DNA of 46,594 nucleotides from IMG/VR virus record IMGVR_UViG_3300032242_002404, positions 1 through 46,594 of that record; one strand, written 5' to 3'. The notes below the pieces were generated by a model. That model had not been told where the DNA came from. It did not search any database and saw nothing but the letters and a program-made list of their open reading frames with translations. Of this stretch, positions 937 through 41,237 are shown one piece after another. The stretch's first letter is position 1; the number at the start of each line of letters is the position of its first letter. The translations under genes and the position numbers were made by a program. This DNA is from a virus.

Positions 937-1631
937 AAGTTTACATCTTGTAAAAGTTCGTAGTTTTTATCTTTCAATAAACTCCACGCTTCATCTCTAA
1001 TTTTAGTTGCAACTTCTATTTCGTTTTCCAAACTAAGAATTTCTGCCATAATTTCATTCTTAACTTCTTCAACATCTTTTTCCAAAACCCACTTTTCTAT
1101 TCTACCATCCGCATGAACAAAATCATATTCTTGTTTTGCTTCATCATATGCTTGCTTAAATTTTGCAACCATATCTTTACCATTAGCAACTGCGTTATTA
1201 CAAACTTTAAAACTTTCATAATAATCCCACATTCCATCTTGTTTTATGATTGCTTCTCTATTTGCCAAACATGCAGTACAATATCCTGTTTTACTAATAA
1301 ATCTTTTATCGGTAGGTCCCCATTTTTGTCTACCTTGTCTTTCACAATCAGATGCTTTACAGGTATTTAATTTATCTAAGTATGCTCTTACATCCTGAAA
1401 TGTTTCAGTTGCTTCAGATGTTTTGATTATACCAAATTCGGTTTTTTCATTAATCATACCATCTGCATCTACCCACTTATCACCAATCTTTCTATTATTC
1501 TTTTTTGCTGCAGAATCTGCATCGGAAAATCCTATGAAAGTATCTTTTTCATATTCTCCACCTGTTAAAACCATATCTACCAACTTTCTACGAGTTGGAT
1601 GCATGAATTTTTTGTTAAAATCTTTAGCCAT
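933..1631 (-). CDS. Zinc-ribbon protein upstream of terminase, candidate small terminase subunit
   Basis: A 232-residue protein with no motif that proves its function. Residues 10-35 (MHPTRRKLVDMVLTGGEYEK) look like a helical DNA- or protein-binding start. Cys91, Cys96, Cys118 and Cys121 (Cx4C and Cx2C) could hold one zinc ion. The C-terminal 90 residues are strongly helical and charged, as in an oligomerising coiled coil. It overlaps terL by ATGA, and small terminase genes usually sit directly upstream of terL, so a small-terminase or packaging-adaptor role is the natural inference. Classical TerS proteins lack a zinc ribbon, so this remains a context-based guess. Start is the ATG at 1631; no Shine-Dalgarno sequence is visible. 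Confidence 0.6.
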   Translation of the reverse strand: MAKDFNKKFMHPTRRKLVDMVLTGGEYEKDTFIGFSDADSAAKKNNRKIGDKWVDADGMINEKTEFGIIKTSEATETFQDVRAYLDKLNTCKASDCERQGRQKWGPTDKRFISKTGYCTACLANREAIIKQDGMWDYYESFKVCNNAVANGKDMVAKFKQAYDEAKQEYDFVHADGRIEKWVLEKDVEEVKNEIMAEILSLENEIEVATKIRDEAWSLLKDKNYELLQDVNL

Positions 1632-1655
1632 ACTATATACGATATATTTGTATAT

Positions 1656-1663
1656 ATAAGTAT
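1656..1663 (-). promoter_or_regulatory. ATACTTAT box, putative phage promoter element
   Basis: Reads ATACTTAT on the minus strand, 24 nt before the ATG at 1631, in the 66-bp gap between two genes. It is the C variant of the ATAYTTAT box found ahead of many leftward genes here. The gap holds nothing else recognisable. Confidence 0.4.
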
Positions 1664-1697
1664 ATCAAAATAAAACAAAACGAAATAAATTTGCTGA

Positions 1698-4547
1698 TTA
1701 TCTTTTTATAGATTGCTTCAACATAGAATCTGCACTCTTTCTTACTTTGGATGATTTATCATATCTCAAAGCACTTTTTAATTTAATCATTCTACCAGTA
1801 TCAGGGTTTTTGATTTTTTTATCTAAAACTTTACTTGGTAAATTTTTAATTTGCGGTGGTGTAGATGTTTTTTGTTTTTTAGTATTAGTTCTTTTTGGTT
1901 CAGAAGCTTTTTTAACTTTTTCTGATTTTTTAGTTGTTAAAACTATTTTAGAAAATACATCCTTATCAAATTTAGGATATATTTGTTGGAATATTTTTCT
2001 CTTTTCAGCTGTACTAATAGTATCACTACCAAATGTTGCTCTTAATTGAGTTCCACTAATATTTTTACCATTAACTTTTAATTGCATCTCAGGTGCTACA
2101 ATGTAGTACCCTTCATGTTCATATCCTTTCTTTTTAGTATCAGGAACTTTATTATAGTTTTTAAAGTATTTACCACCTTGCTCCAATCGTTCTGCATCTT
2201 TTTGGGATACTGCAGTTACATACTTTGTATTTTTAGGTAATTTATCTAAAATTTCAGTAGGTGCATATGGATTTTTAACTCTAACTACTTTACTTGAAGG
2301 TATTCCAAACATAGTAGTTATTATATTTTTCTTATCTTTAAAATCAAATGGAGATTTAATATCATATTGTGCATTTGAAGATGCTATATAAACATTATCT
2401 TTACCAAACTTATCAACCAATGCTTTATAGATACTATAATGTCCTGCATGGAATGGTTGAAAACGTCCGCTGAATATTGCTACTTCATTTTTAGGTTTTT
2501 TAGCAGTATCGGTTTCTTTTCCCGTAGTTTCTTTCTTTTTTGGTTTATCAAATTTAAAAGTTCCGTTAATTTGATTTATAGGTGCAAATGCTCCTGTAAA
2601 TTTGTAAGGTTTACCATTATACTGAAATACAATACCTTCCGATGGAACTAATTTATCTATACCAATAGAATTTAATCTTTTTAATTCGTTTTGTAGTTTT
2701 GCAATCTTATCAGTATCTTTACTATCTCTAATACCTTTAATAGATGCCAATGTTTCTTTCTTTAATGCAATTCCAGCTTTTGGATTGTTTGATGATAAGA
2801 AATTTGTTACTCTTTTCAATACATCTGCTCCTGAATTTAAGAATGTCATTTCAATTGGGTTAATCATTTTCTTTTGTGATTTTACCAATTGATTATTTTC
2901 AAAGTTTTTAAACCATTCTTTTTTCTTTTCATCAGTAAAAGATTTACTACCAAATGTTTTATCACCATCTGCAAATCTTTTAATCAATCCGTTCTTTTCT
3001 TCTTTTGAAAATTTCAAACCTTGCTTATCTAATTCTCTACTCCACCATGCTCTACGATAATCTTCTAATTTTGATTTATCATTTAAACCAAATTCCTTAG
3101 CTGCTTTATCTAATTCCGAATTATATTTTTTTGCTTTTTGTGCATACTCTTTTGCTTCTGCATCATTGAATACTATTTCTCTAGGACCTTCAATACCAAA
3201 TGTTTTTTGTCTATCTGCTCCTACTTTTTGAATAGCCTGTGCAAATGTTTTAGCATCTTCCGTTGAACGACCTATTTGTTCACCATCTTTATTATATTCA
3301 ATAGTTCCATGCATTACCAAAACATTCTTTCCGTAAGGTATTACATTTTGGGTTTCTGGAAGTATAATTTCCAAACTCATAAACTTAGAACCATTACCAA
3401 ACATTTTCTTAACTTGTTCAGGAGATAATTTCTTAACTGCTGCTTGTAAATCCTCAGCTGAATTTGTAAATGCTTTTTCAATTCCACCTCTTCCGGCAAA
3501 TTGTTGTGCAATTCCTTTTACATCTAATGCATTTTGTCCTGCATTTCTAACATGTCCTTTATTTCTACCAAATCTAATTTTACCATCTTTAATAGTAAAT
3601 GCGATATTTTGTCCATCCAATTTTTCACTAACAGGTGCTTCTTTATCCAATCCACCAACAAGACCTCTTTTAATCATTTCTTTCATATCACCGAAAGTCA
3701 AATCTTCATCTTCAAATGGATGTGCTAAGTGTCCTGCTGCTCCACCTTCAGTCAATAAACCCTCCGATACTACTGGTTGGTTATCATGTCCGCATTTATG
3801 ACAAATGTATTTATCAGTTCCACCATCTTCCAATTTCCAATTCCATCCACACTTATCACAAGTTACTTCATCACCATCAACTATTTCTTTAATTGAATTT
3901 TTTTTTATTTTAGATGATTTTTTTAAAAAATCTTCGGGTGTAGTAATTTTTCTATTTGGATGTTCATGGTCCCAAGGTCCATTTTCATTTTTGTGATTAT
4001 CAATTGGTAATTTTTTATTTTCAATATCTTTATATTGGTCACTTTTGTGATTCATCATTTCCCAATCTTTCAACTTACCAACATATGGTTCTTTTTTTCT
4101 AAACTCATTCCAACTGGCATTATGGTCACCATGAATACCCGATGTTTCATAGTTAGCTCCAAAACTTATTTCGTTTAGGTCAGCTTCTTCTAATCCAGCA
4201 TTATTTAATTTGCGATAATAATTTAAATCTTCTTCAATGTGGTCTTTTGCAATAAGTGTTGCAACTTTTAAATTATCAGTATGTTCAGTTTCGTGTTTTG
4301 CACCCTCTTTTATCTTACTCTTAACATCATCAACAGTTGTTTTGTGCTTATCAGCTATTTGTTGAATTGTTAATCTATCAGGTCTATCTCTATGCATTAA
4401 AGATATGGCTGGGTCATTTCCTATATGGTCTATCTCCATAGGATGAACACCACCTAAACCTTCATGTTTAACATGCGGTGTAGATGGTGTTAATTCTTTC
4501 TCTTCTCTTAATATTGATTCTACTAGAAAATTTGTTAATCCTTTCAT
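1698..4547 (-). CDS. Multidomain protein: DUF5661-like, zinc ribbon, ligase-like nucleotidyltransferase and NMNAT-like adenylyltransferase
   Basis: A 949-residue modular protein. Residues about 45-120 resemble DUF5661 (HETEHTDNLKVATLIAKDH). A zinc ribbon uses Cys230, Cys233, Cys249 and Cys252. Residues about 300-655 carry the covalent-nucleotidyltransferase motifs of RNA/DNA ligases: motif I EKLDGQN with Lys309 as the likely adenylated lysine, a motif III-like MSLEII around 391-395, motif IV EGIVF at 638-642 and motif V PYKF at 647-650. They are split by a long helical insert at about 430-625. Residues about 688-865 form an HxGH nucleotidylyltransferase (GRFQPFHAGH at 694-703, ISGTQLR at 830-836), the signature of NMNAT/NadR-type enzymes. 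The tail is Lys-rich. Substrates are unknown; RNA/DNA end repair and NAD metabolism are both possible. It sits among packaging and virion genes behind a late-type promoter box, so it may be packaged in the head. Confidence 0.8.
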   Translation of the reverse strand: MKGLTNFLVESILREEKELTPSTPHVKHEGLGGVHPMEIDHIGNDPAISLMHRDRPDRLTIQQIADKHKTTVDDVKSKIKEGAKHETEHTDNLKVATLIAKDHIEEDLNYYRKLNNAGLEEADLNEISFGANYETSGIHGDHNASWNEFRKKEPYVGKLKDWEMMNHKSDQYKDIENKKLPIDNHKNENGPWDHEHPNRKITTPEDFLKKSSKIKKNSIKEIVDGDEVTCDKCGWNWKLEDGGTDKYICHKCGHDNQPVVSEGLLTEGGAAGHLAHPFEDEDLTFGDMKEMIKRGLVGGLDKEAPVSEKLDGQNIAFTIKDGKIRFGRNKGHVRNAGQNALDVKGIAQQFAGRGGIEKAFTNSAEDLQAAVKKLSPEQVKKMFGNGSKFMSLEIILPETQNVIPYGKNVLVMHGTIEYNKDGEQIGRSTEDAKTFAQAIQKVGADRQKTFGIEGPREIVFNDAEAKEYAQKAKKYNSELDKAAKEFGLNDKSKLEDYRRAWWSRELDKQGLKFSKEEKNGLIKRFADGDKTFGSKSFTDEKKKEWFKNFENNQLVKSQKKMINPIEMTFLNSGADVLKRVTNFLSSNNPKAGIALKKETLASIKGIRDSKDTDKIAKLQNELKRLNSIGIDKLVPSEGIVFQYNGKPYKFTGAFAPINQINGTFKFDKPKKKETTGKETDTAKKPKNEVAIFSGRFQPFHAGHYSIYKALVDKFGKDNVYIASSNAQYDIKSPFDFKDKKNIITTMFGIPSSKVVRVKNPYAPTEILDKLPKNTKYVTAVSQKDAERLEQGGKYFKNYNKVPDTKKKGYEHEGYYIVAPEMQLKVNGKNISGTQLRATFGSDTISTAEKRKIFQQIYPKFDKDVFSKIVLTTKKSEKVKKASEPKRTNTKKQKTSTPPQIKNLPSKVLDKKIKNPDTGRMIKLKSALRYDKSSKVRKSADSMLKQSIKR

Positions 4548-5030: not shown

Positions 5031-6179
5031 TTACAATATTTTTTCTATGTTTTTAATCACACTATAAGATGATATTGATTTTGTACATTCAAATTGTCTA
5101 TCCGTTCCTTTGTGGTCAGGACACCAATTCCAATCACCAGGGTCTAATCTTAATCGGTTAAAACATCCTTCACATTTACCTTTTGGTGCTGTAATTCTTA
5201 TACAATCTTGCATCTCTGCCCAATCATAAGAAAATCCACTTATTAATACCGTTGGAACATTTAATGCCCAACTTAACCAACTCAATCCACTACCTATTCC
5301 AATAAATGCTTTTGATTTTAACATTTCATCCATAACACTTTCTAATGGTCCGTTTGGATGTTGAACTATACCTGTTGGTAATTTATTTCCCATATAATCA
5401 TCACCTTCTTTTGAAAGTAATTTGACTGTATATCCTTTATCATTTAACCAATCCACCACATCTTGCCATCCGGTTGGGTTGTTCCAAAACTTAGATTGTG
5501 CAGTTCCAAATATTGCTATTGTTATTTGCTTTGAATTTGGGTCATATTGTATTCCTCTATTTTTTAATTTTGGTTTTACTTCTACATAATCCAATCCTAA
5601 AATATCCGAACACATTTTTTGCATTGTTTGTGTTTTTGGGTCTATTGGATTTTTAAATAAATTTATACTATTATCTTCATTGTAATATAATCCAATTCCA
5701 TACATTGCATATAAACCCTGAACATTTGTTCCAGGATTTACAAATTCCAATTCAGGATAATTTTCCTCAAACATATGATTCATAAAAGTTGAAACCACAA
5801 CTTTACAATTATGTTTTTTTCTAAATTCATCTGCGTAAGGAAACCAAGCCATACTATCACCCAATGCTTTTGAATCTAATGCAATATAAATTCTTTTACC
5901 TTCAATATCAAATTTATGTTCATGGAATAATTTTCCACCTTCGTAAATTTTAATATCCCAATCAATAAAATATTCATAACTACATCTACACCACATATTA
6001 TTTTTAATAGTTGATGTATAAACTAATGTTTTAGTTTTACTATTCCAAAATTCAATTCTATATTCACCCGGAGTATTTCCTTTAACTTCTACAAAAGGTC
6101 CTTTAACAAAATGAATTATCACTTTATTTTTAATCTCTCTTATACTATTTTTATTTTTCTTTAAATTATTGTAAATCAT
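5031..6179 (-). CDS. TibC/Aah-like protein O-heptosyltransferase (GT9-related)
   Basis: A glycosyltransferase resembling bacterial autotransporter heptosyltransferases, which attach heptose to Ser/Thr of adhesin repeats. Counting from the ATG at 6179 (382 residues), an N-terminal beta-rich region (VKGPFVEVKG, NNMWCRCSYEYFIDWDI) precedes the GT-B core with SKALGDSMAWFPYADEF (Asp108 in the position of the TibC catalytic base). The C-terminal half has AIFGTAQSKFWN and IGIGSGLSWLSWALNVPTV, typical of GT9 donor sites. Cys336, Cys339, Cys353 and Cys365 match the four-cysteine iron finger of TibC. The ATG shares its A with the TAA of the upstream gene (TAATG), favouring it over a TTG at 6188. The donor sugar cannot be read from sequence. 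The family call rests on remembered motif patterns, not on a search. Confidence 0.82.
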   Translation of the reverse strand: MIYNNLKKNKNSIREIKNKVIIHFVKGPFVEVKGNTPGEYRIEFWNSKTKTLVYTSTIKNNMWCRCSYEYFIDWDIKIYEGGKLFHEHKFDIEGKRIYIALDSKALGDSMAWFPYADEFRKKHNCKVVVSTFMNHMFEENYPELEFVNPGTNVQGLYAMYGIGLYYNEDNSINLFKNPIDPKTQTMQKMCSDILGLDYVEVKPKLKNRGIQYDPNSKQITIAIFGTAQSKFWNNPTGWQDVVDWLNDKGYTVKLLSKEGDDYMGNKLPTGIVQHPNGPLESVMDEMLKSKAFIGIGSGLSWLSWALNVPTVLISGFSYDWAEMQDCIRITAPKGKCEGCFNRLRLDPGDWNWCPDHKGTDRQFECTKSISSYSVIKNIEKIL

Positions 6180-8356
6180 TAACTCCAAGTTTTAACTGTT
6201 AAATCTAATAAGGAATATCCTTCTGCCTGCTTACTATACATTTTGTTTGTAGTATATCTTGGTTTTGGATGGTTGTAAAATACATGATTAAACCAAAGGT
6301 CACCAACATCCCACTCACAATCTGCTATTCTATCTAACCACCATTGTTTGTTTCTATTTGGAATTAAATAAGCATGTGCTAAATCCTGATTGTGTGCTGT
6401 CTTAGTAAACATATCATCTATTTTTGTTTTACTCATAGATGGGTTATCTGCCAAACCAATATAATATGCATCATCTCTTTCGGAAATAAAACAAGCTTTA
6501 TGAACCATATTTACAAACTCCTCCAATCCAGTATAAATGAAAGCATCTGCTTCGAATATCAATGTATAATCGTAATTATCAGTATCAATCATTTCCAATG
6601 CTCCTTTATGTGCTAAATAACATCCATAGTGTCTACCTGTAATCCATCCCAATCCGTTTCCTATTGCGCCTGGCATATTATCTTTACTAATATGCTCTGG
6701 TCTTCTACAATGTTCAGCAGGTGCAAATCCTTCATATACTTTGTTTACAATAGGTTTGTAATCAATACCATACTTTTGTAATTGTTTTAAAGAAGCCTGT
6801 GATACCATTTCTCTAGGGTCATTTGGTCTAGTCATTAAATGAATAGCCTGAATACGTGGTTTATTTCTTAACCAACTCCAAATACTTTGTTCAACTTGTC
6901 CATAAAAGAATTCTTCTACTGCTCTTGTCAAACCTGTAAAATGTTCAGTTCCAAAATCATCACCACTAATAACTCCACCTGGTTTTATTTTGTTATACCA
7001 AATGGTCATATCTTCTTTAACATCTTCATAAGAATGCCCACCATCAATCATCATAAAATCAATAGAACAATTTGGAAAATTATTTGCAGCGTTCTTTGAT
7101 GTATCTTTTATATAATCAATTGATGCATAGTTTCCTGATATCATCGTATTATCTATAAACTCATAGAATATATCTCCATTAAAAGTTCCAACAATATTTT
7201 GGTGTAATTTTTCATCAACCGTTCCTTTCCAAGTATCAATTGATGTTAAATTTATTTTCTTACCAGATTTTCTAATTGCAGATGCTAAGTAGTTTGTTGA
7301 TTTACCAAACCATGCACCCAATTCAACAAATACTGCTCCATCAAATCCAGTAGATACCATTCTATCATAAACATTTTGATAAGAAAACCAACCAGGTATT
7401 TCATTAAATTCAGGTTGTAATGTTTCTAATAAAATTCTTTTTGTTTTATTCAAATCACTATCTATATAAGTTACCAATTGATTATTATCATAGGTATCTA
7501 AGAATGTATGTAGTCTTCTAAATAAACATGGTAGTTTATATGAAAGAGCTTCTTTAATTGATAATGGATTTAATTCTAAAACAGAACTAAAATAGAAAAG
7601 GTCAGATGCTGCGTAAAAAGTATCAACATCATCTCTTTCACCCCAAACAATACAATTCTTTGGTTTGTTATTCATCAAAGGGCCCCAATAACTTTCAAAG
7701 TTCATAGCCTGATTTCCTACAAAGTGAAATTTGATTTTATACTTTTCTAATTGCCTTGCTATTGCAAATATCTCACCTTGATTTTTTCCTTCCGAAAATA
7801 AGCCAACATTTAATACATGCTTCCAATCACTTTCAAATCCTAATTGTTTTTTAGCTGCTTTTTTATCAAATGTATAATCTTCAATTGGATATTGCCAAAG
7901 GTCTAATTCAACTCCTAAATCTGCATCTGCAAATCTTTGTTTACTCCACTCCGATACTAAAACATATCTATCAGGTTGGTAAGTTATTTCTTCAGGATTT
8001 GTAAATGAACCATGTGTAGTTGCAACAATAAAATATTTTCTATCTTTAACAAATATTTTATCCAATACATCAGTTGGTAAATCAAATTCAGGAATTTCCT
8101 GAAAGTGTATAATATCAGGTTGAACTTTTTTAATTATATCCAATATTTTTTCTCTTTCGGAATGTAATTCATGTAAAGGTACTAATGCTTTAATTCTATT
8201 CTTTTGAACAACATAAGCATTACCACCACTATTATTTATTTCACAAACTTCAATATCAAAATCATTTAAAAAATGTTTGATTTGTTTGTAAGTATATTGT
8301 GGTTGTCCACCTGTTGATAAGTGCGGACATACATATAACAATTTCTTTTTACTCAT
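6179..8356 (-). CDS. Three-domain glycosyltransferase GT4 / methyltransferase / GT25-like
   Basis: A 725-residue fusion. Residues 5-315 form a GT4-type glycosyltransferase: STGGQPQY near the start, VLNVGLFSEGKNQ at 181-193, and the EX7E donor-site motif ELNPLSIKEA with Glu261 and Glu269. Residues about 320-490 form a class I SAM-dependent methyltransferase of the Methyltransf_24 type: VELGAWFGKST at 344-354, SIDTW at 372-376, and IDGGHSYEDVKED at 437-449. Residues about 500-720 resemble GT25 enzymes, with HYGCYLAHKGAL at 576-587 and an acidic FEADAF at 601-606. The product could build and methylate a short glycan. It starts at the ATG at 8356 directly behind a Bacteroidota-type promoter and is coupled to the heptosyltransferase gene by TAATG. 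The GT25 part is the least certain. Confidence 0.82.
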   Translation of the reverse strand: MSKKKLLYVCPHLSTGGQPQYTYKQIKHFLNDFDIEVCEINNSGGNAYVVQKNRIKALVPLHELHSEREKILDIIKKVQPDIIHFQEIPEFDLPTDVLDKIFVKDRKYFIVATTHGSFTNPEEITYQPDRYVLVSEWSKQRFADADLGVELDLWQYPIEDYTFDKKAAKKQLGFESDWKHVLNVGLFSEGKNQGEIFAIARQLEKYKIKFHFVGNQAMNFESYWGPLMNNKPKNCIVWGERDDVDTFYAASDLFYFSSVLELNPLSIKEALSYKLPCLFRRLHTFLDTYDNNQLVTYIDSDLNKTKRILLETLQPEFNEIPGWFSYQNVYDRMVSTGFDGAVFVELGAWFGKSTNYLASAIRKSGKKINLTSIDTWKGTVDEKLHQNIVGTFNGDIFYEFIDNTMISGNYASIDYIKDTSKNAANNFPNCSIDFMMIDGGHSYEDVKEDMTIWYNKIKPGGVISGDDFGTEHFTGLTRAVEEFFYGQVEQSIWSWLRNKPRIQAIHLMTRPNDPREMVSQASLKQLQKYGIDYKPIVNKVYEGFAPAEHCRRPEHISKDNMPGAIGNGLGWITGRHYGCYLAHKGALEMIDTDNYDYTLIFEADAFIYTGLEEFVNMVHKACFISERDDAYYIGLADNPSMSKTKIDDMFTKTAHNQDLAHAYLIPNRNKQWWLDRIADCEWDVGDLWFNHVFYNHPKPRYTTNKMYSKQAEGYSLLDLTVKTWS

Positions 8357-8397: not shown

Positions 8398-8682
8398 TTA
8401 TTCTGCAACCTCAAAAGTTACATTACCAGACTTCATATCGATTTCACCTTTTGGATATTGTGATTCTAATCCTTTTAATGTTTCATCTAAAGATTTTACA
8501 ACCTCATCATAAGCTGCTTCGATAGAACCCTTAACTGTATTAAGTCTATCCTCTTCAATTTTCACATCTCTTAATCTAATGTGTACTTGTCCTAAATCAG
8601 AAACTAATGTTGCTGCTTTTGTTTGAAACTCAGTCAATTTATCTAAAATTGATTGGTCTAATTTTTCAGTTTTTACTGCCAT
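8398..8682 (-). CDS. Small coiled-coil protein, paralogue of the 4585-4980 gene
   Basis: A 94-residue, almost wholly helical protein. It lines up with the first 115 residues of the 4585-4980 product, ending in the same YPxG-x-x-D/N-x-x-x-G-x-x-x-F/Y hairpin-like segment. It lacks the Gln-rich C-terminal tail of its partner. Function unknown. It follows the 2OG oxygenase gene with a single base between that gene's TAA and its ATG, so the two are probably translated together. A host-type promoter starts at its 3' end. Confidence 0.7.
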   Translation of the reverse strand: MAVKTEKLDQSILDKLTEFQTKAATLVSDLGQVHIRLRDVKIEEDRLNTVKGSIEAAYDEVVKSLDETLKGLESQYPKGEIDMKSGNVTFEVAE

Positions 8683-8683
8683 T

Positions 8684-9241
8684 TTATTTATTTTTAAATT
8701 TATTTTCTCTTAACCAAATTACTGCAATCCATTTAACTCCTGTTTTAACAGGAAGGCCTGCATGTAAACTATCATAATCTAAAGTGCTATCATCATTCAT
8801 ATTTTTCCACATCAACATTCTACCCATCTTAGGTGTTACTTTTATTCTTTTTTTAGGGAAATCAGTTTCACCACCTGTATAATTGTGATTTAAATAAAAC
8901 AAATAACTTGCTGTTCTTTGTCCTGCTCTTCCCATAGTAGTTTCATAATAATCACTATTTGGATGAAAAAAATCGTGATGTTCCTTATACTCTCCACCTA
9001 CATTATATTTTACAATATGAATTTCTTCTTGATTTTCAATTGGTAATCCACTATCTTTTGAAATATATTCTTTTATTTTATTTGTCAATTCACTTTCTTC
9101 ATACAACCAACTATTATCAGCGGTTCTATAACCTGCTATATTTTGTCCTAATGTTGCAGCTGCTTGTAATTGTGCAGAACCACTTGCTATAAGTTCTTGA
9201 CATTCTTGTTCGGATAATATATTATCAACAATCTTAATCAT
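8684..9241 (-). CDS. Prolyl-4-hydroxylase-like 2-oxoglutarate/Fe(II) dioxygenase
   Basis: A 185-residue enzyme of the P4H family, whose known members hydroxylate proline in peptides using 2-oxoglutarate, O2 and Fe(II). The iron ligands are visible: the HxD motif at His88 and Asp90 (KEHHDFF) and the distal His160 (DSLHAGLPV). Lys170 (GVKWIAVIWLRE) sits where the 2-oxoglutarate carboxylate is bound. YLNHNYTGGETDFP at 116-129 is the usual core strand segment. The length fits a single catalytic domain. The adjacent genes encode a DxD glycosyltransferase and a Pro-rich adhesin, which are plausible partner and substrate. Small phage dioxygenases can also act on other proteins, so the proline substrate is an inference. 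Confidence 0.88.
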   Translation of the reverse strand: MIKIVDNILSEQECQELIASGSAQLQAAATLGQNIAGYRTADNSWLYEESELTNKIKEYISKDSGLPIENQEEIHIVKYNVGGEYKEHHDFFHPNSDYYETTMGRAGQRTASYLFYLNHNYTGGETDFPKKRIKVTPKMGRMLMWKNMNDDSTLDYDSLHAGLPVKTGVKWIAVIWLRENKFKNK

Positions 9242-9245
9242 ATAT

Positions 9246-9253
9246 ATAAATAT
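9246..9253 (-). promoter_or_regulatory. ATATTTAT box, putative phage late promoter element
   Basis: Minus-strand TATATATTTATATA lying only 4 nt before the ATG at 9241, in a 19-bp gap. If it acts as a promoter the mRNA would be leaderless or start inside the first codons, so this copy is weaker evidence than those 14-29 nt upstream of a start. Confidence 0.35.
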
Positions 9254-9260
9254 ATACTTT

Positions 9261-10196
9261 TTAGACTAACGCAGATTTTGTTCCGTTAAATTTTAAAATT
9301 TTCCAATATTCAAAAGATGCAGTTTCCTCTTTTATATTGAGATTATCGTTGTATGGTAATTTTTTAATATAATTCCATTTATAGAATAATTCATTTTGCA
9401 TATTGTGTTGTACACCTGCATTATGAAATATAGAATATCTTTCAAATTCTTCTTTTGTTGATGTTGCCCAACTGAATTCCAAATCAGTATGTGTTAGTGT
9501 TTCTTTACCCAATTTCCAACTATTCCAAAGTAATGCCCACATATCCGCACACCATATTTGTAATTCATGATAGTTTGGATTTTCTTTTGTTTTTTGATTA
9601 TTAATTTTTGTTATTTCGGTAAAAAGTAATTCAGAATCATTTTCTACATTTTCCCAAAATTTACTATCTACACCTTTTAAAATATATTGTGCACCTATTG
9701 AATTTTTATCATTTTGTTTTACTATATCCAAATCAATATTTACCAATTCACACATTTTATTTATTACATCATCACCTTTAGATTTTATATAATCATATGA
9801 TATGTAAGAATAACAATCAGAACCATACCATTTATCATCATTTAAAAATTCTTCCCAATTTATTGGTTTTGTTAAAATTATATCACAATCAAAATAAAAA
9901 ATTGCTCTTCTACTTAATTGTTTATTTGCTTCAAAATGTTGTTTTAAAATATTAGGTCTTATAGATGATATGTATTGTTTATTTTTTCGGGCATCATCAT
10001 AAAAGAAAAAATGTACTCTTTTATATTTTTTTTCTAATTTGTAAAAACTTTCATGAATAATTCCATTTACTTTGGAACACAATATATGTACATTAGAAAG
10101 ATTAACACCATTTCGCATAAAACTATCTAACATAATTTCAACTTGCCAAGCATAATATTGTGATGCCGGCTGAACACAAATATAATTCATTACCAT
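9261..10196 (-). CDS. GT-A glycosyltransferase with DxD motif, possibly hydroxyproline/serine O-glycosyltransferase-like
   Basis: A 311-residue soluble glycosyltransferase. The metal/donor motif is FDCDIIL (Asp103, Asp105), preceded by RPNILKQHFEA at 80-90. Near the N-terminus QYYAWQVEIMLDSF (13-26) resembles the YxxWQ segment of eukaryotic hydroxyproline O-arabinosyltransferases and peptidyl-serine galactosyltransferases. The C-terminal FHNAGVQ (257-263) could supply the late metal-binding His258. That specific family link is from memory of motif patterns and is tentative; the general GT-A call is firm. An alternative ATG lies two codons downstream. It sits between the prolyl-hydroxylase-like gene and the Pro/Thr-rich adhesin, 3 bp after a small Cys-rich gene, so action on a virion protein is the favoured guess. 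Confidence 0.75.
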   Translation of the reverse strand: MVMNYICVQPASQYYAWQVEIMLDSFMRNGVNLSNVHILCSKVNGIIHESFYKLEKKYKRVHFFFYDDARKNKQYISSIRPNILKQHFEANKQLSRRAIFYFDCDIILTKPINWEEFLNDDKWYGSDCYSYISYDYIKSKGDDVINKMCELVNIDLDIVKQNDKNSIGAQYILKGVDSKFWENVENDSELLFTEITKINNQKTKENPNYHELQIWCADMWALLWNSWKLGKETLTHTDLEFSWATSTKEEFERYSIFHNAGVQHNMQNELFYKWNYIKKLPYNDNLNIKEETASFEYWKILKFNGTKSALV

Positions 10197-10199
10197 AAA

Positions 10200-10457
10200 C
10201 TAATTACAAAAACATATTTTTCCCTTCATAACATAACTATTTATACAATCCGTTTTTATTGAATTTTTGTAAATATAAACCTCACATTCATCAATATTTG
10301 AAGTTCCAACATTTGTATCAATCGTAGTATTATTTCCATAATATCCATATGTTTTTAAATCAGATTTACAATCATAATAATCTACATATATTGTACCATC
10401 ATCGGATATTTCTAAATCATATGAATTTGCTACTAATATTATATAACGATTTTCCAT
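10200..10457 (-). CDS. Small Cys-containing protein resembling an adhesin end module
   Basis: An 85-residue protein, mostly beta by its alternating pattern, with cysteines in DYYDCKSD, DECEVYI, KTDCINS and a C-terminal CFCN. The pattern of a Y-rich strand, a DC pair and a terminal CxC resembles the last module of the neighbouring adhesin, which has YYDYEDCN and ends CYCA. It is probably a separate small structural domain related to that module. It follows the adhesin gene by 9 bp and precedes the glycosyltransferase by 3 bp, so it belongs to the same transcript. No catalytic motif is seen. Confidence 0.6.
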   Translation of the reverse strand: MENRYIILVANSYDLEISDDGTIYVDYYDCKSDLKTYGYYGNNTTIDTNVGTSNIDECEVYIYKNSIKTDCINSYVMKGKICFCN

Positions 10458-10466
10458 AGTTTAATA

Positions 10467-12575
10467 TTAAGCACAATAACAAGCTGATGAGCTCCAAGTA
10501 TAACTTACTGGTTGATTTGGTGATGAATAAGCAACCCCATCATATTTGGTATAATAAGTACCACTATCAACAATACATAATGGAGCAACATTTCCAATTA
10601 ATATTTGAATACTAAGCACGGGTCCTTCATACAAATTACAATCTTCATAATCATAATATTCATAAGATGAAGGTGGTGGTGAAGGTGGTGGTCCTGCTGA
10701 ACATGAACTATCCCCACAACCTAAAATTGCTGTTGCACTATCTAAATCATACGCATATGAGCCCGCAGTTGAATCGCCTATTATATGCCCACAAACATAA
10801 CTACCAAAACTAAAATATGCAGGAGAGTAATCTATTACAATAGAACTTCTAACAGTATCAGTTCCTCCCGTACAATAACTTATTACATACCAAAAATAAC
10901 TTGGTGTAGGTGGGGGTGGTGTTGGTGGTGGAGTAGGTGGTGGTGGAGTAGGCGATGGTGTTGGTGAACCTCCACATATACAAGAAAAATATTCAGTTCC
11001 AAATGCAGCATCTCCATCAGGTGTAGATGATGTTGTAGTAACAACATACCAACAATTAGTACCATCCATACTACCAACTAATGTTGGTGCATATATTGAA
11101 TAATATGAACCAATAACAGGAGTTACATCCGTTGCATTAAGTATATATACCGTTCCACTAGGACTTCCACCACTACACATTTGAACTTGATAATACACAG
11201 GTGTTGGTGGAGGAGGGGTTGGCGGCGTTGGAGTAGGCGTTGGGGTTGGCGGCGTTGGAGTAGGCGTCGGGGTTGGCGGCGTTGGTGTTGGTGCCGGAGT
11301 TGGTGCCGGAGTTGGTGCCGGAGTTGGTGGTGGTGCTACATAACAAGCCAAAGTTTGACTAGTTAAAGAAGCATGATTACCAATAGAGTCATACAAATCC
11401 ACACTATAAGTTCCATCAGCCAATCCAGTTGCACCTGAACCTGGTGTGTAATGAGTTCCTCCACCATTTAAGGTAAAGTAATAACTTCCATTACCACCAC
11501 TTGCACCAGTTACATCTATTGTACCATTTGTTCCAGATGTATCCGCACAACTTTTTGTAGAAGTACCACTAACCGCAACTAAACAACTTAATGTTGCTGT
11601 TCCTAAATTAGTCATATTTCCATCCCCATCATATAATCTTACAACATAAGAACCATCTGCTAAACCAGTTGCTCCATTTGTAGGGTCATAATGAGTTCCT
11701 CCACCATTTAAAGTAAAGTAATATCCTGTTTGAGAACCATTTGCTACTGATGTTAACCAAATTTTACCATTTGCTCCACCATTATCTAAACAACTTGTAT
11801 TAACCGTTGCGGATGGTGCTACATAACAAGCCAAAGTTTGATTTGATAATGCTGCGTTATTTCCAACATCATCATAAAGTCTTACAGTATAAGTTCCATC
11901 ATTCAATCCAGTTGCTCCTGCAGATGTATCATAATGACTTCCCCCACCATTTAAAGTAAAATAATATGTACCACTTCCACCACTAGGACTGCTTACATAA
12001 ATTTTACCATTCTTACCACTTGTACTTAAACAAGTTTTTGCAGATGTTCCTGATAATGGCGTTACACTACAACTTGTAGTTTGTTTATTAATATGGAAAT
12101 TTCCAACACTATCATATAAAATTAAATACCAATCTTGCGATGCCAATCCAGTAAATGTATATGATGATGCACCACTCAAACTAATTGGTGTTGCAGTATA
12201 TGCTGCCGAAGGTGATGAACCAATTTGAACACTTGTATAAGTTCCACTACCTCCACCAAATGTATTCATTGTAATACTACTTAAACCAGTACCACCATTA
12301 CAACTTGTTGATGTATTAAAACTCAATGGTGCTATTGTTGTTGTAGTAGTTGTTGATGTTGTAGTAGTTGTAGTAGTTGTTGTAGTAATTGTACCTGTAA
12401 TTGCAATAGTTGCAGAAGCAGGTGCTGATAATGTTCCACTTGTTGCTTGAACATCTACACCACCACCTTTAACAGTTAAATTTACCGCTGGTCCATTTAT
12501 ACCATCACATTCAGTCCATGTTACTGCTCCTTCATGTCCTGCTGCTACAAATATTGAATAAAAATTACATGCCAT
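10467..12575 (-). CDS. Thr/Pro-rich adhesin or tail-fibre protein with SprB-like repeats
   Basis: A 702-residue surface-type protein. Residues 1-60 form a small beta domain. Residues 62-80 are almost pure Thr. Residues about 168-411 hold three tandem 80-residue repeats, each with a Cys start, YYFTLNGGG, GATGLADGTY and LYDxxGN, close to the SprB repeats of gliding adhesins; a diverged copy precedes them. Residues 415-459 are a Pro/Thr/Ala run (PTPAPTPAP type). Three Cys-containing C-terminal modules follow (about 460-535, 559-628, 637-702), separated by Pro-rich linkers. There is no signal peptide, as expected for a virion protein. Low-complexity Thr and Pro runs are typical O-glycosylation or hydroxylation targets, and matching enzymes lie directly downstream. 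It probably binds the host surface. GC content is locally raised in the Pro run. Confidence 0.75.
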   Translation of the reverse strand: MACNFYSIFVAAGHEGAVTWTECDGINGPAVNLTVKGGGVDVQATSGTLSAPASATIAITGTITTTTTTTTTTSTTTTTTIAPLSFNTSTSCNGGTGLSSITMNTFGGGSGTYTSVQIGSSPSAAYTATPISLSGASSYTFTGLASQDWYLILYDSVGNFHINKQTTSCSVTPLSGTSAKTCLSTSGKNGKIYVSSPSGGSGTYYFTLNGGGSHYDTSAGATGLNDGTYTVRLYDDVGNNAALSNQTLACYVAPSATVNTSCLDNGGANGKIWLTSVANGSQTGYYFTLNGGGTHYDPTNGATGLADGSYVVRLYDGDGNMTNLGTATLSCLVAVSGTSTKSCADTSGTNGTIDVTGASGGNGSYYFTLNGGGTHYTPGSGATGLADGTYSVDLYDSIGNHASLTSQTLACYVAPPPTPAPTPAPTPAPTPTPPTPTPTPTPPTPTPTPTPPTPPPPTPVYYQVQMCSGGSPSGTVYILNATDVTPVIGSYYSIYAPTLVGSMDGTNCWYVVTTTSSTPDGDAAFGTEYFSCICGGSPTPSPTPPPPTPPPTPPPPTPSYFWYVISYCTGGTDTVRSSIVIDYSPAYFSFGSYVCGHIIGDSTAGSYAYDLDSATAILGCGDSSCSAGPPPSPPPSSYEYYDYEDCNLYEGPVLSIQILIGNVAPLCIVDSGTYYTKYDGVAYSSPNQPVSYTWSSSACYCA
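11199..11333 (-). repeat. GC-rich tandem repeat encoding the Pro/Thr/Ala run
   Basis: On the plus strand the unit GGCGTTGGAGTAGGCGT recurs, followed by GTTGGTGCCGGA units. It encodes adhesin residues 415-459 (PTP, PAPT and PPT blocks). It stands out in an otherwise very AT-rich genome and could vary in copy number. Confidence 0.8.
11343..12074 (-). repeat. Three tandem 80-residue SprB-like repeats
   Basis: Adhesin residues about 168-411. Each unit is about 243 bp and contains a Cys start, YYFTLNGGGxHY, GATGLxDG and LYDxxGN. The DNA is also similar between copies (shared CCACCATTTAAAGTAAA-like stretches), so copies could expand, contract or recombine. Confidence 0.75.
12336..12392 (-). repeat. 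Thr-coding trinucleotide run
   Basis: Nineteen codons (residues 62-80) encoding 18 Thr and one Ser with mixed ACA and ACT codons. The mixed codon use argues that the Thr run is selected at protein level and is not simple slippage of one triplet. Confidence 0.75.
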
Positions 12576-13152: not shown

Positions 13153-16100
13153 TTATTTATATACTATTATATTAACTCTACTACCACTCGAATCCTCACT
13201 ATCCAATTCCATTTTAAAGCTTGTTGGGTATGTATCAAATATTCTTACTATTTTTGGAACGGGTCCGGTTGCTGTTCCATTTGTTGCAAGTACTACACTA
13301 TAAAATGGTTTATCTGCGGTTGCATTAAGCCATGTTTCAGTACTTTGTAATGCTTCTTGAAAAAATACTTGAAATGTATTGGTTGTTACATATGTAATCT
13401 TATCTATGTTCATACAATAAGGCCACCATAAATCCGTATAAATATCCGTACAATTTGTTGATGAATCCGGTTCAAACATTGCATATGCTCTTACTATTTG
13501 AAACGCTCTATTATATCCTCCAAAAAAGTAAGAAGTCATAAAATTACCACCCGCTGCTCTATTTGAACGAGGGTATGATGCATTTTGAATATAAATTTGC
13601 TGTCTACTGTTATGCCATTCTTGATGATGTGAATTTAATAATAAAAATGTTCCACCTATTTCACCAATAGTTCTTCTTTTTTGAAATGAATAATTTGTAT
13701 GAGTTCCATCTGTTGGGAAAATTGTAGTATCTAATGAATCCAACAAACTAGGTTTAAGATACATATATCTATCGGTATCCTGTCCAACATTAAATCCAGA
13801 TTGATTAATTACAGTGGATGCATTTGCAGCAAAATATGTAACATAAAAATCAGGTATATAATAATCTATAGTCATATAGTTATCATATTCTAAATTGAAA
13901 AGTATATATTGAACACTAACAACATAAGATTGTCCTGCTATCAAATTTGCACCAGACATATATAATACTATATTAGTTGCAGATGGGTTTCCTTGATTAC
14001 CAAAGTTTCCACTAAAATCTGCATCATATTGAGGTGTATCAACATAATCTACTCCACCCGGTCCAGTATAAACAGAATTACCAGCTTGGTCTTTTACATA
14101 AATTCTCATTTCAACAAGTGGACCAAAATGTTTAGTTCCACTTATCCAAGTAGTTTTTCTTAATGATGTAGTAGGAATTGAGAATGTAAATTCATATGCA
14201 CCTGTTAAAGTTGGGTAGATAGTAGTTACAACATTCCATGTTGGTGCAAATGGCCATTGACCAGGAGCAATAGTACCTGCATCTACACCAGGAGGATATT
14301 GTAAATATCCATTACTACCTTGTCCCGTCAATACTCCATTTTGGAATGTTGCTGTTCCGGCAGAATATCCATTTATCAAAAATGTTCCCGATGATGCGTT
14401 TGCTGGGTCTGCTGTTGATGTTGTTCCATAATCCAATAATACTTTAGTTGTATTATTTGAATCTTTTAAACGAATAATACCAGATATAGTTAAATCATTA
14501 TCATCCCAATACAAATATTTAGCACCTGCAGTATTTGTTGCATCTCCTAATCTAAATTGTCCTAAGTTATTTAAATAATATCCTTTACCTGCAGATAAAG
14601 ATGTTGCATTTGCACTTCTAATAAATCCAGTATAACTGCCATCCGTACCAATAACCAATCCTCTAGTAATTGTTGCATCCTGTGCTAATAAAATATCAGT
14701 TGCTACCGATGTAAATTGTGCACCAAATGCTTCCCAATACGATGTGTTTGTTGGTAGATTACCTGTTGTATTTGCTTTTGTTATATAATATGTTCCCAAA
14801 TATTGAACAATATCTCTACGAACACCGGATGTAAAATAATAAGCTGTTCCTGCATCATAATTTCCTCTATAAACTACTCCAGGTCCAGATGCACCAGGAG
14901 GTCCATTTGTTCCAGATGTACCTGGTTGACCCGATGTCCCACTTGTTCCTCCGGAAGTTTCCCATGGTCCCTGACTAGGGTAACCTGTTGAAGTATCTGT
15001 TGTATTTGTAGATACGTGCGATGGATTTGATGTACAAGTCCAACTAGAACCACCATAGGTAACAATATCATGATAATAATAAGTTACTCCAGCTGCCCAA
15101 GCTCCTCTAATAGATGGTTCAACATATCCAGGTGCAACTTGTCTAATAGCACCAACGATAGTTAATGTATCACCATCCCAATACATTCCTTTTCCAGAAG
15201 TAGATGTTGTTTTAATTGAAAAACGTCCAGTTGTACCTGCCACACCATCTTCATAAATTCCCATAAAGATACCAGGTCTATTATATCCAATTATACCAGT
15301 TGCGGGTGCACTGATACCGGATGTACCTGCCGTACCAACAGTAGCGTTTTGTCCTATTGCAATATATGGGTCAGTTCTACCACCGGCTATTACAATATTT
15401 GCAAAACCACTAGTACCATTTTTAGTACCAACATTAATTGTATTTTTTACATAAGACTCTTCAAATATTGCAATCTTAGCTGCTACAAAGAAATCTTGCG
15501 TTCCTAAATATTGCCAATATGCTGTATCGGATGTTGTACCCGATGGTGCATGTGCTCCAACTAAATTACTATTACCATCATAAGTTCCAGGTCCACTTCC
15601 ACTAACTGCTGCGTAATATGTTACAGGATTATTACCATATATTACTGCATCTCTACGATAGTTTGTTGTTTCTACACTTCCTATATAATTTGTTGCTGCA
15701 CTCCATTCTCCTCTCATCACAATACCAGGTCCTGTGTTACCTTCATATTGAATTGCTAATGATTGTGTTTTGTAAACTTTTTGTCTTCCGTTTTCTAAAT
15801 CAACTTCATATATAATAAATGCTGTTGGATATTGTGTTGGATATTGCCAATCAGTAATATCAACAGTTTGGGCAGGGTCACCAGTTACATAACTACCAGG
15901 AGTCAATCCACCACCTAAAGTAATGTGCGATGATTTTGCGTATATTTTTGTTGTATAATATCCTATGTTACCAATCAACAATCCGTTTAAATCATATACA
16001 TCATTTGCAGGGTCATATGAAGTTACTGATGTTAATGTAGTTGCTCCTTTAGTTGCTTTAATTGCAGTACCCGTTCCATCAAATGTGATTTGTCCGGATA

Positions 16101-19100
16101 CTTTGTAAACAACTGATGTATTTTCATTTGTTAATAAAACATTGTATGTATCTCCACCTGATTTAACACCCATAATAGTTACTTCCGCAGATGCTATATC
16201 AGGAGAATTTGATGAACCATCTTTTAAAGTAACTCTCCAAACTGCTGTTTGACCAGGAGATGTAGAGTCACCAGAACCAATTTCTAATGTATTAGTTGTT
16301 GATGTTGCTGAATATATGTTACCATCTTTATAGAATGTATAATAAAGTAAAGATGATGTTGTATTAAATGCAGTTGCCGTAAGAATAATATTTCCTTGCG
16401 GTGAAACTACACTACCATCTCCATCAAAATTTACCGTTGTTGATGTTGATGATATTGATAATGAACGAGCTGCTTTACCATCATTTACTTTTGTAAAATT
16501 TTGAGTTGATGATAAAGTATATGAACCAGTTGTGTGTCCAGGTAAAAGTGAGTACGGATATACTACAAAATTATATTGTACACTTGCAGATGGTGCATCC
16601 ATTGTACTAAATCCACTAACAAATAATGAAGCAGAATCTACCGATGATGTATAAAGTTTTCCAGGTTTGATATGATTACCAACTACTGATGCAGTTACAT
16701 ATGTTCCAGGTAAACCACTACTTGTATAAATTAAATAATCAGTTCCCTCTAATAATTGTATCTTTGTATTTGCTGCTGTATAACCTTTTGCAACACCACT
16801 TTCCGATGAATTGATTGTTACATTTGCAGGAGTTACAATAATTTGAATTGGAGGTGCACCTGCTAATGCTTTTGTATAATTTTGTACAACACTTTGTGTA
16901 TAATATGATGATGTAAAATAAGGGTGTATTTCAAAATCATAAGTAATACTTCCACTTAATTGTGTCATATTACTCATACTTGTCATATTAAATGAAGAAG
17001 TATTTGTAAAATCAATATTACCAGGAGTTATATTTGATGCACTAATTGCGTTGTAAGATGCTGTCCAGAATGTACCAGGTTTTTGAGAACTAGTAAATGC
17101 CAAATATAATGTACCTTGTTTAACTTTAATTGATGTATCTGTTGGAGTATATGTACCAACATTTCCTTTTGCATCCGAAGGTAAATTTACCGATGCAGGT
17201 GTTACTTCAAAAACAATTGAATCATCTCCTGGTTTACCTTCAGGAACAATCTGCCATGTTTTTGCAACAACAACCGATGATGTTGTATATGGTTCGGTGT
17301 AAGTAAAACTAATATTTAAATGTCTACTTTCATTTGTAGATGTATAATCATACAATTCACCACTTTCATTATCAACAATATAATATGCATATTCAGGATA
17401 ACCAGAATCAATAGTTAATTTATTATCATCTATTGCGGTTACTGTAATTCTTGGGTCAACACTTTGTGTTGCGTAATACAAATAATAATGAGGAACATAA
17501 TCATCATCAATTGACATTGATGGATATACTAAAATAGATGCAGATGCTGCTTGTGTATTTGCACCTCTAATATAAAACGATGCCGTTGCACTAGCAGATA
17601 CCGGAGTAAATATAGTTTGTGTTCTTGGTTGTATTGTAAAATGTTCCGTACTATAATCTAAGAAACCAGTTCCCAAACCATCTTGCAAATCCGTTAATAA
17701 AGTTGTTGCTAATATAGATGCAGATGTAGAACCGGTTGGCATCAAATAAACTGCTAATTGTTTATTTAATTGTGCCTTCAAAGTATCTCTTGTGAAGATA
17801 GCATTGTAATTTAATTCTCCAGTTCCTAATGAACCGGTTGTAATACCAACTAAGAAACCACTTGAACTTGCTTGCGTTAAAGTTATATATTTTGAACCAG
17901 ATAATACATGCAGTTGATTTGCTGCTCTACCTTTGATTGCGTTACTCTTTAAATTGATTGTATTAACACCATCAACAACATAAGCCTGTAATTCTAAACT
18001 TTGTGTACTGCTATTTCTAATTTCAGTACCATTGTATGCTTTGATAAAATAATTAACACCACCAAATCCGTCCAATACTCTTGTGATAATAACGGTATCA
18101 GTTACACCCTCACATTCTCCAGTTATTTGTACATATTGGACATTTATATCAGGTCTTGAACCTGTAAAATGTTGAACAGTCAAATATGGAACTGAACTTG
18201 TTATATCGTTTAAAAGACCAGGATAAACATTATCAAAACTTGCCGTATATTGAGAACCTGATAATACATTTCCAAAAAAATCTATTGATTGTGATGTGAA
18301 ATGTACTGAACCTGTTAATAATGTTTTTTGTAAATTAAATGCAATTGATGTTGGTGCAACTGGGTTAGAACCAGAATCAAATTGGAAATAAAGAGATGAT
18401 GGATTTAATTTTAAACTTTTTGTAATAGTTTGTAAATTACCACCATTAAATGTTTTTGTAGCATTTACTAAAACAGGTACATAGTTGTTGTTAATATCAT
18501 AAAATTCAAAACGATAATCAAATGTTTCAAATGGTAAACTTCTAGGTACAGGTTCAATAAATGTAATTGCATCAGGAGAAAATGATGTTTCCTGTGCAGC
18601 AGTTAAACTTACATTTGCAATATACCAACCAGTTCCAACTACTTCAAAATATAATTTTGCATTTTGTATTTGTTGTGGTACTGCAAAGTTTGTTGTATAT
18701 GTTCCTTTTTGTGTTAAATTATCTGCGGATGAATATGTTACAATATTTGTTTGATATGCAACATTAGTTCCGTTTATTAAAGATGAACCCGAAATGAATG
18801 CTTTGATGTAATTTGTTGGAGATATATTTGTGAATAATCTTAAATCAAATTCCAATGCATATTCGGTTCCAGTATTAAATGTTAAGCTTTGAGTTGTAAA
18901 AAATTTATTAGTCCCAACACTATCTAATTTAACCGAATCAAATAAAAAATCTTGATTAAATGTTGTTGTTAGATTATTAGATGATGTTACCCAATATTGT
19001 GTAAGAATTGGTTGAGTAAATTGTCCATAATAATCCAATAAAGCATTTTGAGTATCACTACCAAAATTTCTCAACAATTCATTTGCTTCTAAAGGAATTT

Positions 19101-20164: not shown

Positions 20165-20335
20165 ATGAAAAAATACGCAATGATACAAATAGATGCGGAG
20201 GTGCATCAGATGTTAAAAGAATTTTGTAAAGATAAAGGATATAAAATAAATGGGTTAGTAGAAACCCTAATAAAAGAAAAGGTGCAAGCTTCAAAACCTG
20301 CACCTAAGAATGTATTACCCGTTATTAGAAACTAA
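20165..20335 (+). CDS. Ribbon-helix-helix (Arc/MetJ-type) DNA-binding protein
   Basis: A 56-residue protein and the only rightward gene in the window. MIQIDAEVHQMLKEFCKDK (6-24) followed by GYKINGLVETLIKEKV (25-40) fits the strand-helix-helix fold: a short strand, helix A, a turn with GYKINGLV, and helix B. Such proteins bind DNA as dimers with the paired strand in the major groove, usually at inverted repeats. A 9-bp inverted repeat and a second palindrome lie just upstream, so autoregulation and control of the divergent fibre gene are reasonable inferences. The 3' end overlaps the convergent gp47-gp46 gene by 11 bp. A short Pro/Ala/Lys tail follows the fold. Confidence 0.8.
   Translation: MKKYAMIQIDAEVHQMLKEFCKDKGYKINGLVETLIKEKVQASKPAPKNVLPVIRN
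20268..20305 (-). terminator. Rho-independent-type terminator of the nuclease operon, inside the antisense gene
   Basis: On the minus strand a 7-bp perfect stem AGGTGCA/TGCACCT with a 12-nt loop is followed by TTTTCTTTTATT. It starts 20 nt after the stop codon of the gp47-gp46 fusion. It lies within the coding sequence of the rightward ribbon-helix-helix gene. Confidence 0.55.
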
Positions 20336-23474: not shown

Positions 23475-23475
23475 A

Positions 23476-23670
23476 CTATTTGTTATTTTTATTATATCCT
23501 TCATTAAATCCAATAAAATACACTTCCTCTATAAATGCTTTTGGAACTTTTATTTGATAATGATTACCATCCGCAGATGATAAAGTTATATCCCACATTA
23601 TTATGTCTTCTTTTTTTTCAAATACCAATGCTAATACTGCATCTGATACTACTTCTTTAATTTCTCTCAT
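23476..23670 (-). CDS. Hypothetical 64-residue protein in the replication operon
   Basis: A small acidic/aromatic protein with an N-terminal helix (MREIKEVVSDAVLALVFEKK), then a beta hairpin (WDITLSSADGNHYQIKVPKAF) and a short end. No family is recognised. It is sandwiched between the 91-residue gene (3-bp gap) and the nuclease fusion (1-bp gap), so it is expressed with replication and recombination proteins. Confidence 0.55.
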   Translation of the reverse strand: MREIKEVVSDAVLALVFEKKEDIIMWDITLSSADGNHYQIKVPKAFIEEVYFIGFNEGYNKNNK

Positions 23671-41236: not shown

Positions 41237-41237
41237 A

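Follow-up and report, generated by a model that had tools for sequence, protein, structure and literature searches.

A candidate fibre-linker modification cassette in a phage: a glycosyltransferase and a prolyl 4-hydroxylase beside an adhesin with poly-Thr and Pro-rich linkers

Gene content of the locus

The 46.6-kb viral record IMGVR_UViG_3300032242_002404 (46,594 nt, analysed over its whole length and called the window here) carries a gene block in which an adhesin with threonine- and proline-rich linkers lies close to genes for a glycosyltransferase (GT) and a prolyl 4-hydroxylase (P4H). An earlier note on this DNA had proposed that the phage hydroxylates and glycosylates its own fibres. 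Every open reading frame (ORF) that it listed was recovered at its coordinates, all on the minus strand (Table 1), and the order of transcription is a large fibre (13153-20070), two small ORFs, the adhesin, an 85-aa ORF, the GT, the P4H, a 94-aa ORF, a GT-methyltransferase fusion and a GT9-family gene. The enzymes and the adhesin are clustered as the note had said, but its enzyme-enzyme-substrate order is reversed in transcription, where the proposed substrate comes first, followed by the 85-aa ORF, the GT and the P4H. Both additional glycosyltransferase genes that it listed are present, although one is fused to a methyltransferase and the other is a GT9-family gene. From the adhesin through the 94-aa ORF, genes are separated by 1 to 19 bases, as in an operon.

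Table 1. Features of the adhesin locus in the window
Feature	Position	Strand	Basis
Adhesin/fibre-like virion protein, 702 aa, proposed substrate	10467..12575	-	ORF call, domain layout, AlphaFold2 model
Poly-Thr linker T10-S-T6, aa 64-80; mixed ACA/ACT codons; proposed O-glycosylation tract	12336..12386	-	
Four tandem Ig/FN3-like beta-sandwich repeats, aa 81-413	11337..12335	-	
Pro-rich linker 1, APPPTPAPTPAPTPAPT..., aa 414-459; proposed hydroxylation tract	11199..11336	-	
Pro-rich linker 2, SPTPSPTPPPPTPPPTPPPPTPS, aa 537-559	10899..10967	-	
Pro-rich linker 3, PPPSPPPSS, aa 629-637	10665..10691	-	
GT-A glycosyltransferase, phrog_4417; proposed to O-glycosylate Thr in the poly-Thr linker	9261..10196	-	Profile, DxD, fold model, context
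Prolyl 4-hydroxylase, 2OG-Fe(II) oxygenase; proposed to act on the Pro-rich linkers	8684..9241	-	Domain, PDB matches, active-site residues
ORF of 85 aa separating the adhesin from the GT; no match to a known family; seen only in the same phage population	10200..10457	-	
94-aa ORF; first of the conserved genes that follow the enzyme slot	8398..8682	-	Relatives in L355, L372, L373, L038
GT4/GT1-type glycosyltransferase fused to Methyltransf_24, with a weak GT25-like C-terminal part; candidate for glycan extension/capping	6179..8356	-	
GT9-family, heptosyltransferase-like glycosyltransferase	5031..6188	-	PF01075 4.5e-5, barely over cut-off
Collagen-like stretch, 8 G-X-Y triplets, inside the neighbouring fibre	14878..14949	-	

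The adhesin consists of an N-terminal domain, the poly-Thr linker, four immunoglobulin (Ig)-like repeats and a C-terminal part in which Pro-rich linkers alternate with small domains. The Pro/Thr-rich character attributed to it earlier holds up, both in the T10-S-T6 run and in a 46-aa APPPTPAPT... tract (Pro-rich linker 1) whose length differs from that in the closely related contig L002; motifs of the Pro-rich tracts include PAPT, TPPTPTP and PPPPT. Neither the Thr tract nor the 46-aa Pro tract was regenerated in 20,000 shuffles of the adhesin's own residues, and both are encoded by mixed synonymous codons. An AlphaFold2 model of residues 81-413 (predicted local distance difference test, pLDDT, 88.9) predicts tandem Ig-like adhesin domains, with grappling hook protein A (GhpA) of Aureispira as top PDB match (E 2.6e-9) and fibronectin and SiiE-type repeats next. 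No relatives of the adhesin were found among annotated phages.

The P4H is a 2-oxoglutarate (2OG)-Fe(II) oxygenase (PF13640, 2OG-FeII_Oxy_3; 2.8e-17, 63.9 bits against a cut-off of 27) whose closest solved relatives are all prolyl 4-hydroxylases, namely those of B. anthracis (9.4e-29), human (P4HA2) and Chlamydomonas. It also matches the prolyl 4-hydroxylase of PDB entry 5c5t (4.8e-13), which is that of PBCV-1. Its active site is intact, with HxD...H iron ligands H88, D90 and H160 and the 2OG-binding K170. Domain, nearest structures and catalytic residues all agree with the previous assignment of this gene as P4H-like and, with P4Hs as its nearest solved relatives, the enzyme is predicted to hydroxylate proline.

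The GT matches phrog_4417 (2e-67), a family listed in PHROG as of unknown function, while a Pfam scan assigned it to no family and a sequence search of the PDB returned no match. The DxD aspartates, D103 and D105, are invariant across 47 sequences, and the AlphaFold2 model (pLDDT 96.8) has a GT-A fold, such that profile, motif and fold together confirm the DxD glycosyltransferase that had been reported. The structure search called for in the earlier note supports the fold, but gives a broad answer that singles out no acceptor: the Foldseek matches, with E about 1e-7, are UGGT, XXYLT1, alpha-1,3-GalT and glycogenin.

Association of the glycosyltransferase with poly-Thr proteins

Eighty viral loci were collected by similarity to the GT alone. 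A Thr-rich gene lies directly upstream of the GT in 49 of 78 loci and in 12 of 17 lineages (70% dereplication), compared with 30 of 1015 other ORFs in the same loci (3%; Fisher 2e-14, an approximation since the Fisher values assume independent lineages), and three more lineages (the window, L049 and L042) have the Thr-rich gene two or three genes upstream. The signal is positional, being found in 25/37 cases at -1 and 1/38 at +1 relative to the GT. It also holds in reverse: the GT occurs in 11 of 50 random records picked only for a poly-Thr ORF and in none of 50 control records (p=5e-4), and gene maps place it immediately after the Thr-rich gene in nine of the 11.

The same pattern is seen in phage isolates whose hosts belong to Bacillota, Actinomycetota and Bacteroidota. 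Each of the 16 GT-encoding isolates examined has a virion protein or neighbouring protein that is rich in Thr, and in 13 the gene immediately before the GT encodes a capsid, tail or other protein with a Thr-rich tract within it or at its end, as with the major tail protein of Enterococcus phage phiFL1A (gp50), the capsid of CHPC836 and the corresponding gene of Chryseobacterium phage MA9V-3. In Lactococcus phage 1706, the major structural protein (orf13), with the tract ...TTTTTTTTTTHHD, is encoded directly upstream of the GT. For bIL285, nattely and 9183 it is instead the major tail protein encoded in the same module that has the tract, and in SAC12B and LP65 it takes the form of Thr-rich repeats (TTVKP, TETQTQ) with no pure run. 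This genomic context argues for a protein O-glycosyltransferase and, because most GT phages have neither a P4H nor a Pro-rich adhesin, the GT probably glycosylates threonine directly, with no requirement for hydroxyproline.

Relatives of the GT that are 35-40% identical and encoded on Bacteroidota chromosomes belong to another branch, found in loci for ribosomally synthesized and post-translationally modified peptides (RiPPs). They are fused to a second GT and adjoin a grasp-with-spasm peptide maturase (TIGR04193, 1.6e-57) or a LanC-like protein, which suggests that the GT family works near peptide substrates. Two of these relatives, from Chitinophaga (L410 4004-5737 and L418 2919-5716), are fused to Glyco_transf_7C beside grasp-with-spasm or LanC-like genes, possibly for glycosylated RiPPs. 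As a separate observation, in Staphylococcus phage SA2 (L391 3673-3936) and in two other loci (L401 2120-2431 and L397 2220-2426) a long ORF of TTTTTTT-P repeats extends the Thr tail of the major tail protein in an overlapping frame, which suggests a programmed frameshift yielding a longer Thr-tailed tail protein.

Association of prolyl 4-hydroxylases with Pro-rich adhesins

Among 44 records with the GT, a 2OG oxygenase exceeded the cut-off only in the three that have a Pro-rich adhesin. Both linker types are found with both enzymes in the window, L037 and L049; in L037 and L049 the poly-Pro adhesin is accompanied by P4Hb, a P4H that is just about 25% identical to that of the window. When P4Hb was itself used for a search, the gene immediately before it was Pro-rich in all 15 close loci (7 clusters at 90%), the longest runs reaching 32 Pro, compared with 20 of 1317 ORFs. 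The window P4H and P4Hb fall into separate clades of the P4H tree, so the pairing of P4H with Pro-rich linkers arose at least twice. A pattern scan for poly-CCN returned mostly non-proline frames, with a real poly-Pro ORF in 9 of 119 loci, and among these loci no 2OG oxygenase exceeded the cut-off except in L138, the contig of L049.

Two further observations concern these hydroxylases. A DUF6065 protein (L356 9354-10094 and relatives, x244) is kept beside P4Hb in nearly all poly-Pro cassettes and is perhaps a member of the pathway. In L093 (1168-8985), a pair of collagen-like (GPPGVPG) fibre genes is followed, after one intervening gene, by two neighbouring 2OG oxygenases, a possible third hydroxylase-fibre pairing.

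Linker exchange on a shared adhesin scaffold

The N-terminal adhesin scaffold of relatives provided a query that is blind to both linkers and enzymes. Adhesins on this scaffold that have poly-Thr linkers have the GT as their next gene (L365, L367), those with poly-Pro linkers have P4Hb (L368, L374-L377), and the one with PAPT repeats like those of the window has a P4H of the window type (L379). Where such linkers are absent neither enzyme adjoins the adhesin (L369-L371), and the contigs of L370 and L371 have a 2OG oxygenase about 9 kb away from it. By lineage, a P4H is present in four of six with Pro-rich adhesins versus none of about 18 others (p=0.0014; lineages not found via P4H and counted by hand).

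The N-terminal domain of the window adhesin differs from this scaffold, so the window is tied to the series by the slot, the repeats and the linkers. The 94-aa ORF, the GT-methyltransferase fusion and the GT9 gene are conserved downstream in the window, L355, L372 and L373, and the large fibre is conserved upstream wherever the contig extends that far. The slot between these flanks holds the GT and P4H, P4Hb and the DUF6065 protein, or nothing. Each enzyme tracks its own linker type in relatives, and these phages appear to gain, lose or swap the enzymes largely in step with linker type.

Other features of the window

Tail genes of the window include a baseplate wedge-like gene (37041-39071) and an endolysin-like gene (40085-41269). 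The collagen-like QPG/PPG triplets described earlier in the neighbouring fibre do exist, but as one run of eight G-X-Y (aa 1708-1731) of which two contain proline (QPG and PPG). Collagen modification was rejected as a reading of the locus, since these few triplets lie in a different gene from the adhesin. A 949-aa protein with DUF5661 and cytidylyltransferase-like domains (1698-4547), encoded in one block with the glycosyltransferases, possibly serves nucleotide-sugar supply. Amid the tail genes, a single 1062-aa ORF (20325-23513) matches SbcC- and SbcD-like nuclease subunits.

Discussion

We consider it likely that this gene block is a fibre-linker modification cassette with parallel writers, in which the GT acts on Thr and the P4H on Pro. 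Co-occurrence, position and linker swaps strongly support the earlier suggestion that the phage has a dedicated system for hydroxylating and glycosylating the linkers of its fibres, but the GT tracks poly-Thr rather than Pro and the argument from collagen is weak; the suggestion is thereby refined to two parallel writers in place of mainly one sequential pathway. In the scheme that we infer, from acceptor residues and sugar through to the modified adhesin of the virion and its benefit, Ig-like and small domains would be strung on flexible low-complexity linkers. The GT would move sugar from a nucleotide-sugar to the threonines of the poly-Thr linker to form a mucin-like glycosylated stalk, while the P4H would hydroxylate prolines of the PAPT/PPPPT linkers to give a stiffer polyproline-II rod, with both enzymes acting in parallel during virion protein synthesis. 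The hydroxyprolines possibly serve further sugar addition, and the GT4-methyltransferase fusion and GT9 protein may extend or cap the glycans. The outcome would be stiff, protease-resistant and shielded stalks between the adhesin domains.

Several results weigh against this interpretation. No GT was found in 39 of the 50 random poly-Thr records, one GT lineage (the L007 group, 18 loci) lacks Thr-rich neighbours, with ACN runs elsewhere in most of its larger contigs, and the chromosomal GT relatives mostly have no such neighbour either (4/47 have one). The nearest relatives of the window P4H (L083-L090, about 50%) are encoded away from fibres, and no 2OG oxygenase is present in the 67- and 111-kb contigs of L372 and L373, whose adhesin linkers are of the (PT)n or PPSPT kind. 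Such absences are weak evidence, since many of the loci are fragments. The chlorovirus P4H acts on peptides, but no hydroxyproline has been detected in the virions (PMC7019647). The PBCV-1 enzyme resembles that of the window in being viral and of the same superfamily, but the host of PBCV-1 is an alga and no substrate-adjacent pairing is reported for it.

A serial pathway, in which prolines of the PAPT tract are first hydroxylated by the P4H and the resulting hydroxyprolines then glycosylated by the 9261-10196 GT, would resemble plant extensins (P4H, then hydroxyproline O-arabinosyltransferase, HPAT) or Dictyostelium Skp1 (P4H, then GT60). The adjacency of GT and P4H in the window fits such a route, as does a further GT-like gene (276 aa or DUF7796) that often comes immediately behind the P4H in P4Hb loci, but it is L379 that provides direct gene evidence, and among the relatives only there. 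In L379 a PAPT adhesin is followed by a P4H, a GDSL-like protein, an HPAT-family protein (PF23452; 5.8e-10, 39.5 bits, cut-off 23.9) and a protein of the Pfam GlcNAc family PF11397 (4e-21). The latter family includes the Skp1 hydroxyproline GlcNAc-transferase (GT60) of Dictyostelium. L379 is the sole HPAT carrier among the cassettes: a scan of 31 further records gave no HPAT, PF23452 is absent from the sister contig L002, and neither PF11397 nor PF23452 is among the Pfam hits of those window proteins that were scanned. The window shares with the eukaryotic systems a P4H beside a PAPT-type substrate, but differs in having no detected HPAT or GT60 partner, in belonging to a phage, with no secretory pathway, and in having a virion adhesin as putative substrate. 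As the GT family mostly occurs with neither P4H nor Pro-rich adhesins and tracks poly-Thr, we regard the serial route as unlikely for this GT, although the downstream GTs could still add sugar to hydroxyproline. The C-terminus of the L379 adhesin (1539-3242) is Hint-like, with weak Hom_end_hint and PT-HINT matches, and this adhesin is possibly self-processing.

It is also quite improbable that the P4H and GT are unrelated cargo that modifies host proteins or surface polysaccharide and lies beside the fibre by chance. Marine phages often carry 2OG oxygenases in other settings, the placement of the nearest P4H relatives would suit such cargo, and GT9/heptosyltransferase-type genes usually act on lipopolysaccharide. 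Against this, the enzymes track linker composition on both axes, in unrelated Bacillota and Bacteroidota phages and by recurrent recruitment. Slippage of DNA repeats, with enzymes hitch-hiking on modular tail exchange, would account for linker lengths that vary between near-identical phages, but is very unlikely given the mixed synonymous codons of the tracts and their recurrence with the same GT on non-homologous virion proteins (capsid, tail tube and adhesin).

The modification of linkers by two parallel writers can be compared with known phage systems. In mycobacteriophages, which encode glycosyltransferases, glycans are reported at the C-termini of capsid and tail-tube subunits (Freeman et al. 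2023, as summarized in PMC12619734); unlike the cassettes of the window type, the system is described in that passage with no proline hydroxylase or poly-Thr/poly-Pro linker swap. The glycosylation half of our proposal therefore has a precedent, and the linker-matched hydroxylation is the new part. Phages of Lactococcus, Enterococcus, Lactobacillus and Staphylococcus encode the same GT family (phrog_4417, 'prophage pi2 protein 34') beside a poly-Thr-tailed capsid or tail protein; unlike the window, no P4H was noted in these loci, where the GT gene is annotated just as hypothetical. A search of the open-access literature on poly-threonine, virion hydroxyproline and phage HPAT gave nothing on point.

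We know of no such post-translational fibre engineering described in bacteria or their viruses. Tentatively, and with somewhat less confidence than an even chance would warrant, we propose that tailed phages use an interchangeable linker/writer code to build mucin- or extensin-like virion stalks, in which the phrog_4417 GT goes with poly-Thr, whereas P4Hs recruited more than once, in one case joined by hydroxyproline O-glycosyltransferases, go with poly-Pro or PAPT. The poly-Thr members include isolated phages of Lactococcus, Enterococcus and Chryseobacterium, all ordinary laboratory hosts, so the claim is directly testable by mass spectrometry. Through the linker-writer pairing, sequence data can be used to predict a substrate, which can seldom be done for phage glycosyltransferases. 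If correct, it would give a function to the widespread unannotated phage family phrog_4417 and to fibre-linked phage prolyl hydroxylases, and would extend the mucin-like and extensin-like protein design of animals and plants to bacteriophages.

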